Shown in pieces: positions 38,020-44,305 of a stretch of DNA of 64,000 nt. Where the stretch lies: assembly GCA_903898675.1 (NCBI GenBank), contig CAIUGM010000022.1:62001-126000 (forward strand). The letters run 5' to 3'. Below the pieces are notes generated by a model, which saw nothing but the letters and a program-made list of their open reading frames with translations, was not told the DNA's origin and searched no databases. The stretch is from an uncultured Verrucomicrobiota bacterium. GTDB lineage: Bacteria; Verrucomicrobiota; Verrucomicrobiia; Opitutales; Opitutaceae. The position numbers and the translations under genes were made by a program. Numbering within the stretch: position 1 is the first letter of the stretch; the number at the start of each line of letters is the position of its first letter.

Positions 38020-38478
38020 TCAAGTACCCTGTGGCGGCGCGATCGCGGGATCGCCGATGAGCTGCCGGACCGCGCCGGCCAGTTCGTCCAGGCTGAAAGG
38101 TTTCAACAGCGTCTGTTTCACCCCGAAATGCCGCGCCGCCTGCAGGAACACCTCCGTGTCCGCAAAGCCATCGCCCGACATCGCCAGGATGGCGGGCGGG
38201 GGCTGCACACCGCGCAGGTGCATGATGAGTTCAAAACCGTCGACGTCCGGCATGAAGATATCGGTGACCAGCAGCCGGAACCGGTGCTGGCGCAGCCGTT
38301 CCAGCGCGTCGCGGCCGTCGCCGGCCTCGCACACGCTGTAACCGCCGGACCGAAGGGCAGCGGCCATCACGCGCCGGAGCGGCGCGTTGTCATCCACGAT
38401 CAGGATTTCACAACCGGCGGCGCCGGAGCTGGCGGCTGGATTCGCCGCATTGATGCTGGCAGGCCGGGGCGTGGTCAC
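38020..38478 (-). CDS. CheY-like single-domain response regulator
   Basis: 152 residues. A Pro/Ala-rich leader of about 20 residues precedes a receiver domain with ILIVDDN, phosphoacceptor Asp in [12 protein letters not shown] and Lys in LLKPFS. No output domain. Its start overlaps the stop of the chemoreceptor gene by 4 bases (ATGA), so the two are translationally coupled and the receiver may take part in the same signalling path. Confidence 0.9.
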
Positions 38479-40010
38479 TGGGCCAGGGTCTCGAAAAATT
38501 TATCGGAGCGAGGGTCGGGGCGCGAGGGCACAACGACGGGCGCGACCGGGGCGGCGGTCCGCGATAAGACAGGCGGGGCCGACCCGGCGCCACCGACGAG
38601 CTGTTCCAGTTCGCTCACCGCGTCCCGGAGGTGGTCGGCCTGCGCGTTGAGTTCCTGGGCGGCGCCGGCGCTTTCCTCGGCGGTCGCCGCGGTGTTCTGG
38701 GTGACCTTGTCCATCTGTGCCACGGCGGTGCTGATCTGCCCGATGCCCTGGCTCTGCTCCTTCGACGACGCGGCGATTTCCGCGATGAGCTCGTCGACCT
38801 TGCGCGCGCCGTCGAGGATCTCATGCAGGCTGCCCGAGACCTTGGCGCTGATGGTCACGCCCTGCCGGCTCTTCTCGATCGAGTCCTCGATCTTCTCCGC
38901 GGTCTCGCGCGCCGCCTGCGCGCTGCGCTGCGCGAGGGCGCGCACCTCCTCGGCGACCACGGCGAAGCCGAGGCCGGCCTCGCCTGCGCGGGCGGCTTCC
39001 ACCGCGGCGTTGAGCGCGAGGATGTTGGTTTGAAAGGCAATCTCGTCGATCGTCTTGATGATCTTCGCGATGTTGTCGGAGGAGACCTTGATGGCGTCCA
39101 TCGCGCCGGTCATCGCCTGCACGTCGCCCGTGCCGGTGTCGGCCGCCTGGCGGGTCTGGTTCGCCAGCGTCTTGGCCGACTCGGCGTTATCGGCGTTGCG
39201 CCGGGTCATCGAGGTGATCTCCTCGAGCGACGCACTGGTCTCCTCGAGCGACGCGGCCTGCTCGCTCGCGCCTTCCGCCAGCTGCTGGCTGGAGGTGGCC
39301 ACCTGGGCGGTGGCGGCGGCGACTTCCGCCGCGCTCGTCTCCAGTGCGCCCACCACGCGCCGCAGCGTGCGGTTGGTGCCGGTGATGATGACCGTCGCGA
39401 CCGTAACACCCACCGCGAGCGCGGTGGCCAGTCCGCCCAGAATGCCCCGCTTCGCGGAGGCAATCGCGGCCACGATCTTCGCGACGGCATCGTCGCCGTC
39501 GCGCTTGTTGTAGTCGGTGAGGTCCCGGATGGTGCGGCGGTAGTCCTGGTAGCCGGGTTCCAGCCGGTCCTTCAGCAGGGCGAGGGTCACTTCCTGGCTG
39601 GCGGTGCGGGCCGCTTCCATCACCGTCTTGCGCACCTCCATGTAGCTGAGGCGGCCGGCGACCATAGCGGCGTACAGCCGGCGGTCCTCGGGCTCGGTGC
39701 TGGTGGTCTCGTAATCCTTGAACAGCTCGGTGAGGCGGGCCGTGTTCACCTTCATCTCGGCCTCATCGGCCGCCCGCTCGGCTGCGTTGGGTGCCAGCAT
39801 CCAGCGCTGCACCAGGGCGTAGTTGGCCAGGTTCACGGCCTCGATCTGCCCGGTGTAATAAATGCCGGGCATGCAGTTCACGCTGATCCGTTCCGATTGC
39901 TCGTTGATCGCGGTCAGGCGGGCAAAGGCAAAGAGCCCCAGGCCCGCCAGGCCGGTGAGCAGGAGGGCAAAGCCGAAGATGATGCGTTTTCCAACAGTCC
40001 AGTTTTTCAT
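38475..40010 (-). CDS. Methyl-accepting chemotaxis protein
   Basis: 511 residues from the ATG at 40010 ([18 protein letters not shown]). TM1 is at about 10-28, a four-helix-bundle-type periplasmic domain at 30-185, TM2 near 190-212, and a long cytoplasmic coiled coil with the signalling hairpin tip ([40 protein letters not shown]). No distinct HAMP motif is visible after TM2. The C-terminus is Pro/Val-rich with no CheR-binding pentapeptide. It is coupled to the downstream receiver and preceded by a structured leader with a terminator (40080-40195). No cheA or cheW is in the window. Confidence 0.93.
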
Positions 40011-40079
40011 AAGTGCGTGAATAAATATGGCCGGAGCGCGGTTCGCGCGACGGACGGCATCCCCCGCCGGACCGGCATG

Positions 40080-40105
40080 AAAAAGGCGCAGCCCAGTCCT
40101 GCGCC
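40080..40105 (-). terminator. Intrinsic terminator/attenuator upstream of the chemoreceptor
   Basis: On the minus strand, GGCGCAG (40105-40099), loop GACTGGG, CTGCGCC (40091-40085), then TTTTT (40084-40080). It lies 70 bases before the chemoreceptor ATG and downstream of the receiver gene ending at 40276. It could end that transcript or attenuate the chemoreceptor. Confidence 0.75.
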
Positions 40106-40215
40106 CTCCGAAAGGGAGACATGACTCGACTGCGCCTTCGACTGACAGGCCCGTATGTCCTGCCGGAGAAAGCCGTCCGCAACCGAATTGCGGACCTGGC
40201 AAGGGGTTTATCGGC
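40106..40215 (-). promoter_or_regulatory. Structured leader with competing terminator arm
   Basis: Transcribed toward the chemoreceptor, this segment has a strong hairpin (GTCCGCAA / TTGCGGAC, 40175-40195), then a second GGCGCAG at 40136-40130 identical to the 5' arm of the terminator at 40099-40105. The two copies could compete for the single CTGCGCC, an attenuator-like layout. A small CTCC/GGAG hairpin lies between them. I tested it by eye against the c-di-GMP-I consensus and did not find the GCAAA-type core, so no known riboswitch is assigned. Confidence 0.45.
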
Positions 40216-40275
40216 CGGATTCAGCGCGACTGTAGCGGGAAAGGCGCGCGAGCCCGGCGGGGCATGGCTGATCCC

Positions 40276-41046
40276 CTAGGAATCGCCGCGGTTCAGCAGC
40301 TGCTCCAGCTGGCGGCGCAGGTCGGCCAGGTCCTTGCTCTTGAAATTCTGCTTGGTGCGCTCCAGCACCTCGACGGTGTGGCGCAGGGCGGCCGCGTGGT
40401 CGATCTGTACCAGGGTGGCGGCCGCCGGGGTGGTACCGCTCCGCTCCAGCACCGCCGTCGCCTGCTCCAGGTCGGACAGCATCAGCATGACCTGCTGCAG
40501 GGTGAGCCGGAGGTAGCTGCCCATCGGGCCGCCCGCCTGGCCCGAGGGGGCATGACTGACCAGTTGCTCAATGCGCGCCAGTTCGCCGTCCCATGCCTGC
40601 AGCCGCGCGCGCCCGGCCTGCATCGCCCGGAAGCCCCGGAAGACCGCGACCGCCTGGTCAAGGATTGCACACAACTCGGAGAAATCAGGCGGCTTCGTGA
40701 GGTATGCCGTCACCTTGAGCCGCACGGAGCGGGCGGCCGTCTCCACCGTCGGGCGCCCGGTCAGCAGCAGCACCGGCAGGCCGGCCGCCACCTGCGGCAC
40801 GGCGGCGATCAGTTCGAGCCCGGCGTTGCCCGGCATGTGAATATCGGCGATCAGGGCGTCGAATTCCGCCTCCTGCAATTTGGCCAGCGCCGTTGCGCCC
40901 GAGCCGGCGCAGGTCACGGCGAACCCCGCGCGGCGGAGGAGTTCCCCCAACCCCTCGAGGACGACCACATCGTCATCGGCAAACAGCAGCCGGCCGCGGG
41001 CAAGCGGTGGCGGGGGATTTACCGGGGAAGGATCAGTCGTGCCCAT
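40276..41046 (-). CDS. Response regulator with helical C-terminal domain
   Basis: 256 residues. The receiver domain (about 18-135) has LLFADDD, phosphoacceptor Asp in ALIADIHMPG and Lys in YLTKPPD. The C-terminal 120 residues are predicted helical, with no DNA-binding or enzymatic motif I can name. It follows the hybrid kinase at 41153 with a 106-bp gap, same strand, and precedes the chemoreceptor; it probably takes phosphate in that pathway. Confidence 0.82.
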   Translation of the reverse strand: MGTTDPSPVNPPPPLARGRLLFADDDVVVLEGLGELLRRAGFAVTCAGSGATALAKLQEAEFDALIADIHMPGNAGLELIAAVPQVAAGLPVLLLTGRPTVETAARSVRLKVTAYLTKPPDFSELCAILDQAVAVFRGFRAMQAGRARLQAWDGELARIEQLVSHAPSGQAGGPMGSYLRLTLQQVMLMLSDLEQATAVLERSGTTPAAATLVQIDHAAALRHTVEVLERTKQNFKSKDLADLRRQLEQLLNRGDS

Positions 41047-41152
41047 GTGGTTTCAGCCCGGGTTACCCAAGCGATTGTAAGCGCGAAGGACGCGACAAGT
41101 CTGCGCCTCCATCCCTGATCCAAGCCGTCTCTCGTCCTCGCTCATTTTCCCG

Positions 41153-44100
41153 TCAGCCCTGGCTGGGTTCATCGAGTGCCTGGCGGACGGCGGCGGCGAG
41201 GCCGGCCGAGGACAGCGGCTTGGCGATCAGGCCGCGCAACCCGAGTGCGCGCAGGCTCTCGGGGGTCCACGTCCCGCTGTAGCCGCTGGCGAGCAGCACC
41301 GGCAGCTCCGGCCGCACGGCGAGGATCTGCCGCGCCACCTCGATGCCCGTGATGTGCGGCATCGTGAGATCCGTCACCACGAGGCTGAACGCCGAAGGAT
41401 CCGCCTGAAACGCCGCGAGCGCCGCCTGCGGGTCGGTGTGCGGGGTCACGCGGTAGCCGAGGTGCCCGAGGAGAACGCGCACCGAATCGGTGATCATCCG
41501 CTCGTCATCGAGAAAGAGGATATGCTCGCCGCGGCCGCGGGGCAGTGCCGCCGGCTCGGCCGCCACGGCCTGCGCCAGCGTGGCGTGCTGCGGCAGGAAA
41601 ATCCGGAAAATCGTGCCCTCGCCCGGCTGGCTTCGCACGGTGATCGCCGCATCATGATCCTCGACGATCCCGTGGACCACGGAGAGACCGAGACCGGTCC
41701 CCTCGCCCGGGCCCTTGGTCGTGAAGAAGGGCTCGAAAATCCGCTTCAACGTCGCGGCGTCCATGCCCCGGCCGTTGTCCGCCACCGACAGGCATGCGTA
41801 GAGTCCCGGCCGCAGGCCGCGGGCCATGGCGCACGCCGCCGCGTCGAGCCGCACCGGCTCCAGGCGGATGGCCAGCGCGCCCGGGCGCTCGCGCATGGCG
41901 TGCGCGGCGTTGGTGCCGAGATTCATGATGATCTGGTGAATCTGGATCTGGTCCGCGAGGACGACGGGGGTCTGCGCATCGGTGTGGACGTCGATCTGGA
42001 TGGTGCTCGGCAGGCTCGACCGCAGGAGCTCGGCGGCCTCCCGCACCACCGCGTTGAGCCGCACGGGCACGCGCTCCTGCACCTGCTGCCGGCTGAAGGC
42101 GAGGATCTGCCGGACCAGCTGCCGCGCCCGGTTGCCGGCCTTGCTGACCTCGGCGAGGTGCTTGCGCACCTCGGCCGGCCGGTCGAGATCGATCAGGGCC
42201 AACTCGGTGAAGGCCAGGACGCCGGTCAGGATGTTGTTGAAGTCATGGGCGATGCCGCCGGCCAGCTGGCCCAGCGCCTCGAGTTTTTGCGCCTGCCGCA
42301 GCTGGGCCTCGAGCGTCGTGCGCAATTCGTCGGCTTCGCGCCGGCCCGTGATGTCCTCGATCGTGGTGAGGATGCCGGGCCGGCCGCCGATCTCGATGCG
42401 TTCGCAACTGCAGAGCGTGACGATCTCCCGGCCATCGCGGGCGAAGAAGGTCAGCTGCATGTGCCGCACCCGCTCCCCGGCGGCCAGGCGGCGGAGAATC
42501 TCCTCGCGCTCGGCGGGGCGCTTCCACAGGCCGAGTTCCAGCGCCGTGTGCCCGACCGCCTCCGCATACGGGTAGCCCGAAAGCTGCACGAAGGCCTCGT
42601 TGACGTTGATGAAGTGCCCGGTGGCCAGGTCGGAGATCGACTGGGCATACGGGCTTGAGTCAAAGGCCTTGGCGAATTTCTCCTCCGACTCGCGCAGCGC
42701 GCGCTCGGCCTCCAGCTGCGGCGTGATGTTCTTCACCACCGTCACGATGCAGGTGCGGCCGTTGAGCTCGATCGGCTCGGCGGAGAACAGGCAGACAAAC
42801 GGCCGGCCGCCCCGCGCCAGGCCGCGGAGCCGGAGATCCCTGACCCGGCCCTCGCGCTGCAGGAGCGCCACCATGTGTTCGCGTTCCTTGGGGTCGGCCC
42901 ACATTTGCAATTCCAGCGAGGTCCGGCCGATCACCTCCGCGCGGCTGTAGCCGAAGATCCGTTCGACGGCCTCGTTGACCTCGAGCACCCGGCCGGTCTC
43001 CAGCTCGACGATGGAGATCGCATCCGGGCTCGCCCGGAAGGCCTTGGCGAATCTCTCCTCGGATTCCCGCAGCGCCTGCTCGGCGGCCTTGCGGTCGGTG
43101 ATGTCCCGGCTGTGGAGCACGAGGCAGGCGCGGCCGCCGATGTCGACCGGCTCGGCCGACATCAGGAAGGTGCACCGCCGGCCATGGCGCACGCGCGCCA
43201 CCACCTCGAGGTCACGGACCGAGCCGTGTACTTTCAACTCTGCGATCAGCCGTTCGCGGTCCGCCGGATTGCTCCAGATCCCCAGCTCGTGCGAGGTCCG
43301 GCCGATCAGTTCATCGCGGGAGTAGCCGGACAGGCGCTCGTAGCCCTCGTTGACCTCGATGAACCGGCCCGTCGCCGCCTCGGAAATGGAGATCGCATCC
43401 GGGCTCGCGCGGAAGGCCTTGGCAAATTTCTCCTCGGATTCCCGCAGCGCCTGCTCGGCGCGCTTCCAGTCCGTGATGTCCCGCCCCTCGGCCACGATCG
43501 AGATTACCCGTCCGCCCTCGTCGCGCACCGGCTTCAGGGAGAAGTCCACGGACATCAGCCCGCCGTCCGCCCGGGGATGACTGGTCTCATAGCGCACAAA
43601 GCCGCCGCCGGCCGCGCGGCGGACGGCTGCGCGCAACTGTTCCTGCTCCACGACGGAGTGCTGCCACCAGGGCGTCTCCCAGAAATACCGGCCCTCCACC
43701 TCGGCCCGGGCCGCACCGATCGCATCCAGCGAGGTCTGGTTGGCGCGCAGGAGTCGGCCCGTCGGATCCAGCAGGCCCGTGAATTGAAACGAATGGTTCA
43801 GGATCGCGCTGAGGATGCGTTCGTTCTCCGCCAACGCCTCCTCGGCGACTTTCCGGGCGGTGATGTCGGTGATGATACCCTCGAGCACGCACGGGCCGCC
43901 GTCGCCGGCGAGAATGGCGAGGCCATGCTCGTTCACCCAGCGCAGCCCGCCCGCGGCGGTCACGATGCGATACGTCAGTTCAAAGCGGCCGCCGGCGTTC
44001 AGCGCCGCGCCGACCTCGGCGCGCACCCGCGTGCGATCCTCCGGGTGAATGATGTCCTCGTAGCTGACCTTGTGATTGCCGAGCAGGTCCTCCGCCGCAT

Positions 44101-44305
44101 ACCCGGTGAGCTCGAGGCAGCCGTCGCTCACAAACTCCATCGTCCAGAACTGGTCGTTGCGGCAGCGGTAGGCCATGCCGTGCAAATTTGCGAGGAGCGT
44201 GGCCAGCATCGGCAGCCTGGTCTCGCGGCTGTCCGTGGCAACCGGCGAGCCGGATGCAGTCAGGCCCGAGGACTTCGGGGCCGACGCATCACGTTCTTTC
44301 GCCAT
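41153..44305 (-). CDS. Multi-PAS hybrid sensor histidine kinase with receiver
   Basis: 1,050 residues. Five PAS domains in series (about 30-155, 160-285, 290-410, 415-535, 540-660), the last three opened by near-identical linkers ([20 protein letters not shown] and variants), showing recent internal duplication. Then HisKA with [16 protein letters not shown] (phospho-His), HATPase with DNGRGMD and [13 protein letters not shown], and a C-terminal receiver (FLDDERM, Asp in LVVTDLTMP). No membrane segment, so it is cytoplasmic. It heads a run of signalling genes on this strand and is divergent from cheX. Confidence 0.93.

Follow-up and report, generated by a model that had tools for sequence, protein, structure and literature searches.

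Riboswitches that use an intrinsic terminator as their expression platform have a conserved domain that folds and shares its last strand with the terminator, stand 5' of many non-homologous genes, and occur in multiple and tandem copies. The leader RNA considered here, which precedes a chemoreceptor gene in a 64,000-nucleotide stretch of DNA from an uncultured bacterium of the Opitutaceae (the window), resembles them in each of these respects. It differs from them in that it has no Rfam match at the gathering score and in that its ligand is presumed.

The c-di-GMP-I riboswitch (GEMM-I, RF01051) is similar in target theme, with GEMM targets that include chemoreceptors, receivers, porins and membrane proteins. 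However, the element matches it in neither sequence nor structure, and at the gathering score the RF01051 model found nothing in the window, in the leader, or in the loci of 38 relatives. Among genomes that carry the element, none of the 21 Opitutaceae has RF01051 and 4 of the 19 others have it, a distribution that says nothing for or against c-di-GMP as the ligand.

The dual-hairpin antiterminators targeted by ANTAR proteins also have two hairpins, the second of which overlaps the terminator and is exclusive with it, but they carry A1/G4 hexaloops, which the element lacks, its P2 loop being variable. Leader RNAs of sigma28-dependent flagellar genes offer a further parallel, in that the Verrucomicrobia element follows a TAAAG-N14-GCCGATA box. 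In Holophagaceae, however, it follows sigma70-type boxes, and the RNA would therefore form its own layer of control. The atoC RNA motif (RF01733) owes its name to a response-regulator gene. With that name, and as a delta-Proteobacterial cis-regulatory candidate, it too invites comparison; its model matched none of 16 loci, delta-type loci included, even at E 10. Table 1 of PMC2864571 lists this motif as a cis-regulatory candidate for delta-Proteobacteria.

The earlier note on this DNA had found, by eye, no known riboswitch consensus that fits the leader, and the Rfam searches agree. In Rfam 15, no family reached its gathering score in the window or in the loci of 38 relatives, with the exception of one tRNA in L070, and the window leader (39950-40300) had no match even at E 10. 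An E 10 scan of 16 relative loci returned weak matches only, all below the family cut-offs, to plastid, human, viral-miRNA, snoRNA or bacterial sRNA families. The element was not found in the literature searched, of which one large 2017 motif study was covered only via Rfam, and it may already have been described in print or in a supplement. Judged by its sequence, the element appears to be an attenuator family new to Rfam.

The leader in the window

Direct reading of the minus strand shows GGCGCAG twice, at 40136-40130 and 40105-40099 (the far and the near copy), and CTGCGCC once, at 40091-40085, followed by T5 at 40084-40080. These motifs, and the strong hairpin upstream, lie where the earlier note had placed them. 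The parts of the element and its surroundings are as follows.

40276..41046, minus strand: upstream gene for a receiver-domain protein (named by eye), on the same strand as the element and ending 41 nt before the promoter-like box
40209..40234, minus strand: sigma28-like promoter, TACAG (40234-40230), a 14-nt spacer and GCCGATA (40215-40209)
40075..40198, minus strand: whole conserved leader RNA element, as matched by the covariance model
40175..40195, minus strand: P1, a strong hairpin in which 40195-40188 pairs with 40182-40175
40168..40173, minus strand: antiterminator 5' strand GCUUUC, a copy of the terminator 3' arm, with 40139-40134 as its partner
40145..40163, minus strand: P2 hairpin inside the antiterminator, 40163-40159 with 40149-40145, flanked by conserved loop strands
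40134..40139, minus strand: shared strand GAAGGC, the antiterminator 3' strand and also the first bases of the terminator 5' arm
40080..40139, minus strand: intrinsic terminator, GAAGGCGCAG (40139-40130) with CTGCGCCTTT (40091-40082), then the U tract
40099..40105, minus strand: near GGCGCAG copy, in the terminator loop and private to the window
38475..40010, minus strand: downstream chemoreceptor gene (4HB_MCP type, named by eye), with its ATG 69 nt past the U tract

The leader folds more stably than 200 of 200 dinucleotide shuffles, with z -4.4 for 131 nt and z -5.3 for the 71-nt terminator part. A simple terminator scan left the window terminator unflagged because its loop exceeds the length that the scan allows. 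The locus scores 93.3 bits (E 1e-19) against the R3 covariance model and 101.9 bits against the R2 model, values that are high by construction given that the window is part of the model seed. Around it, at 38020-44305, there is a run of signalling ORFs, named by eye, with receiver proteins to either side of the chemoreceptor and, in addition, a large PAS hybrid kinase.

Family members and distribution

A blastn search with the leader gave matches in 9 of 95 relative genomes, its own included. When the nine leaders were aligned, the stretch after P1 was the strongest block, and two-sided change was seen in 16 of 37 predicted pairs. The covariance model derived from these leaders matched in 23 of 252 Opitutaceae genomes, several of which hold 2 to 4 copies. 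A DNA core pattern scanned over named genomes gave 40 stretches, 28 of them judged real by eye and 12 judged chance; the latter (L044, L046, L048, L049, L051, L060, L064, L066, L074, L075, L077 and L080) were dropped, again by eye, for want of an upstream GCYTT and of a terminator. The search pattern included neither an upstream GCCTT or GCTTT nor a downstream terminator, and most of the real matches have both. By their MAG labels, these matches come from Holophagaceae, Acidobacteria, Planctomycetota, Candidatus Scalindua, KSB1, Anaerolineae, Candidatus Zipacnadia, Deltaproteobacteria, Verrucomicrobiales and Opitutaceae. A second model, made after an alignment of 45 sequences, matched in 18 of 18 non-duplicate source genomes, with up to 8 rows per genome when weak reverse-strand rows are counted in.

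The covariance searches led to an alignment of 109 distinct members from Opitutaceae, other Verrucomicrobia, Holophagaceae, Planctomycetota, Deltaproteobacteria, Chloroflexi and KSB1 MAGs. Reverse-strand model matches are terminator palindromes and were left out, and four weak or odd matches (L155, L156, L158, L186) were excluded from the pair counts. Sampled rates, which are rough in that some matches are weak and the search filters strict, were 12/41 in the family of a Holophagaceae carrier, 11/80 in the order of a delta carrier and 9/59 in the order of the Scalindua carrier. At phylum level they were 8/297 for the delta carrier (third model) and 7/288 for the window, a patchy distribution that weighs against the attenuator-family model.

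Conserved structure

The earlier note had proposed covariation across the leaders of orthologues as a check and absence of conservation as grounds for refutation. The leader is conserved among orthologues, and P1, P2 and the terminator formed with the far GGCGCAG copy covary across relatives. Over the 109 members, 94.3% of cells in these three helices are paired, compared with 38-47% in slid controls, and 432 cells show two-sided changes versus 111.5 in shuffles, counts that lean towards the three helices in that the alignment was fitted to them. A smaller MAFFT alignment gave 94.1% paired cells for the same helices, with 121 two-sided changes versus 38.8 in shuffles. Taken singly, P1 has 89.7% of cells paired and two-sided changes at 8 of 8 pairs, P2 has 97.4% and 5 of 5 pairs, and the terminator has 96.3%, with at least 4 T within 8 bases after GCC in 106 of 109 members.

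The antiterminator, left out of the covariance model, has 95.0% of cells paired over its 5 pairs. The case for this helix is one of complementarity, covariation being thin (two-sided changes in 5 cells versus 1.0 in shuffles). One pair, 37-149 in alignment numbering, fails in 11 of 107 members. Among 73 members outside the search pattern, all 5 pairs form in 51 and 4 of 5 in a further 17 (68 in total); control 5-mers gave a full 5-pair match in 9 of 1460 cases. The most conserved loop letters are C44, G45, A138, G139 and U140 (alignment numbering). They sit in the internal loop around P2, and the end loops of P1 and P2, read by eye, vary in length and sequence. The element thus has the conserved aptamer-like domain and covarying helices of a riboswitch, as well as the GC-rich stem and U tract 5' of a same-strand gene and the conserved, terminator-exclusive alternative pairing of an attenuator.

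The idea of an attenuator-like structured leader, with a sensing-type domain upstream and a chemoreceptor downstream, is therefore borne out in relatives. The switch that the earlier note read into the two GGCGCAG copies is not. It took pairing of CTGCGCC with the near copy to be the terminator and pairing with the far copy to prevent it, whereas the far copy is the terminator 5' arm itself and covaries with the 3' arm. Near-copy pairing is absent from both the MFE and the centroid fold of the window leader, and a second 5'-arm heptamer in the loop occurs in the window only (1 of 105 members), so we rejected a duplicated 5' arm as the switch. The terminator arms read GGCGCAG/CTGCGCC in the window versus GGCACAG/CTGTGCC in most close relatives. 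The near copy is probably there by chance; by fold energies it can make a weaker hairpin on its own (-17.1 versus -37.3 kcal/mol), and it could have a private role in this single leader. Across the family, the duplicated competitor is instead GCYUU (40173-40169 in the window), a copy of the terminator 3' arm and not of the 5' arm.

The antiterminator and the terminator in silico

Both of the exclusive structures can form in 97 of 109 members. When the RNA is cut just past the shared strand, the antiterminator has a probability of at least 0.5 in 87 of 107 members (0.986 in the window), and the remaining 20 truncated transcripts do not favour it. In the full-length leader, the terminator is favoured (at least 0.5) in 102 of 107 (0.994 in the window). 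The order in silico is thus antiterminator first, with the terminator then displacing it. The energy needed to force the antiterminator is 5.9 kcal/mol in the window, with a family median of about 6. Under this constraint a shortened terminator hairpin remains, which in the window no longer abuts the U tract, and the terminator 3' arm is still paired at a probability of 0.45 (median 0.49). Because this shortened hairpin survives, antitermination may be partial. In these models the element behaves as an antiterminator/terminator switch, with the antiterminator presumably the state that a signal would favour.

Targets and promoters

Gene neighbours were counted from the output of a crude ORF caller, not of a gene finder, and 104 of the 109 members were covered. 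For 93 of 103 elements the ORF closest downstream shares the strand of the element, at a median distance of 54 nt, and the upstream neighbour is on the opposite strand for 31 of 100. A Pfam scan, in which each ORF was the longest on the same strand near the element, covered 65 downstream ORFs (78 elements), the window's chemoreceptor locus among them. It found MCPsignal in 18, Response_reg in 16, 4HB_MCP_1 in 7, CheW and STAS in 3 each, OprB and Porin_O_P in 2 each, and carbonic anhydrase, alginate export and a TonB receptor in 1 each. A further 27 ORFs (36 elements), picked in the same way, gave PAS 4, Response_reg 4, OprB 3, STAS 2, MCPsignal 1 and FeoB 1. Target enrichment in these counts is judged from general knowledge, without a genome-wide background rate. 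In a Scalindua MAG, a receiver-domain gene is preceded by two elements (L117:1512-1626 and L117:1760-1874) that have no gene in between, a tandem arrangement known from riboswitches.

Promoter boxes differ between clades, yet lie at the same position before P1; in the window, the end of the GCCGATA box is 10 nt ahead of the element. In Verrucomicrobia, TAAAG-N12-16-GCCGATA, which we take to be the sigma28 consensus, precedes 29 of 45 elements when at least 10 of its 12 positions must match, compared with 0.5% of shuffles of the upstream sequences. For Holophagaceae, the figures are 17 of 25 elements for a sigma70-like box (at least 9 of 12 matches) and 4.3% of shuffles, and in Planctomycetota and the delta groups neither type stood out. 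Because the type of box differs by clade, the RNA is not tied to any one sigma factor.

The window's own genome has a GCCGATA box here although no FliA/WhiG sigma factor exceeds the curated cut-off, and for this reason a different factor may recognise the promoter there, or the box may be a remnant. A search for the exact sigma28 pattern across this genome gave no match. FliA exceeds the cut-off in 19 of 23 Opitutaceae with the RNA versus 18 of 32 without it. Given this weak association and the lack of FliA over the cut-off in the window genome, we rejected a motility sigma factor as the sole explanation.

Proposed mechanism and alternatives

Sequence comparison establishes the hairpins P1 and P2, the terminator, the strand that only one of two exclusive structures can use, and a position in cis before sensing, motility and porin genes, and the evidence for an attenuator is strong. 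We lean towards a cis-acting transcription attenuator with a presumed sensing pocket in the internal loop, in which a signal that holds the antiterminator leads to readthrough. In this scenario, RNA polymerase would start just 5' of P1, and GCYUU and GAAGGC in the emerging leader would pair around P2, giving a hairpin whose conserved internal loop is the putative pocket. As the terminator 3' arm, GCCUUUU, emerges, it would compete for the GAAGGC strand. Where the terminator wins, transcription would end at the U tract, ahead of the chemoreceptor; where a signal holds the antiterminator, the base of the terminator stem would be trimmed off the U tract and the polymerase would read through.

We suspect a small molecule, bound at the internal loop as in an ON riboswitch, to be the signal, and prefer this to a protein because a conserved internal loop in a small hairpin that overlaps a terminator resembles a compact aptamer. 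A second messenger of the motile/sessile transition would best suit the target genes, though this is a guess. We read the element as a new attenuator family, most likely of the ON riboswitch type, for which we infer both the presence of a ligand and the direction of the response. Whether it is also a new riboswitch class spanning several phyla, with the P2 internal-loop hairpin as aptamer and an intracellular signal that turns on chemoreceptors, CheW, receivers, STAS proteins and porins jointly, below the choice of sigma28 or sigma70 promoter, is in our view evenly balanced.

The main rival, which we consider unlikely, is the same attenuator with an antiterminator that a dedicated protein binds and stabilises, as ANTAR or BglG/LicT proteins do. 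In protein-bound antiterminators (PMC3369931), as in the element, the 3' strand of a small hairpin doubles as the 5' strand of the terminator, and many of the targets are two-component and chemotaxis genes. However, the conserved letters are in the internal loop and not in the end loops. By eye, the P1 loop of the window is not an A1/G4 hexaloop, and P2 loops range in size between some 4 nt and a long additional arm (L059, L067). The scan for RNA-binding proteins, which covered ANTAR only, found such proteins in 3 of 50 genomes overall and in none of the 20 Opitutaceae scanned that carry the RNA, which excludes ANTAR control in that family. A BglG/LicT RAT antiterminator is not suggested by the gene context, and binding of CsrA to a GGA in P2 was set aside by eye, as the GGA after CAGG is not invariant. 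A leader-peptide attenuator was also rejected, given that a uORF of at least 8 codons stops within the element in only 46 of 109 members and that P1 and P2 covary as RNA; an ATG precedes the end of the shared strand in 35 of 109.

It is more doubtful still that the element is an always-terminated small RNA acting in trans, placed before signalling genes by co-duplication. The dominance of the terminator in full-length folds, the structured P1 and P2, and the many copies in several genomes would all suit such an RNA. Against it, the close same-strand ORF leaves scant space for a promoter of its own, a free small RNA would have no use for the conserved GCYUU strand, and the same core stands before unrelated genes (porins, FeoB, carbonic anhydrase, CheW). 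That the element is merely the 3' terminator of the upstream gene is highly improbable, for although the window has that gene on the strand of the element, with its end at 40276, the two are separated by a promoter-like box, many upstream neighbours elsewhere run in the opposite direction, and the roughly 60 nt before the terminator are more conserved than its loop.

The RNA elements known to act jointly on chemotaxis and two-component genes in more than one phylum are few. Should the antiterminator hairpin of the proposed attenuator bind a small molecule, it would represent a riboswitch class with a conserved pocket, a clear expression platform and many natural variants, and would name a signal common to chemotaxis arrays and porins in poorly studied groups such as Opitutaceae, Holophagaceae and the anammox Planctomycetota. 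Even with a protein effector, the family would yield a regulon and a covariance model to follow.

Variant members

Several members depart from the common form. One copy, close to a contig end (L008:1518-1643), has the core without the usual terminator and is perhaps decayed or of a translation type. In L059:5105-5275 and L067:4990-5108, P2 is a much longer arm, and the antiterminator strands and core loop are still conserved. A delta-type variant with the core GUCUUACGG-[P2]-AAGUGAAGGCG (L150-L154, L157, L159, L183-L185, L188 and L189) precedes OprB-like porins, FeoB and other genes, and is likely a separate subfamily that merits a model to itself. In L166:1445-1617, two cores are apparently fused or duplicated within one element.
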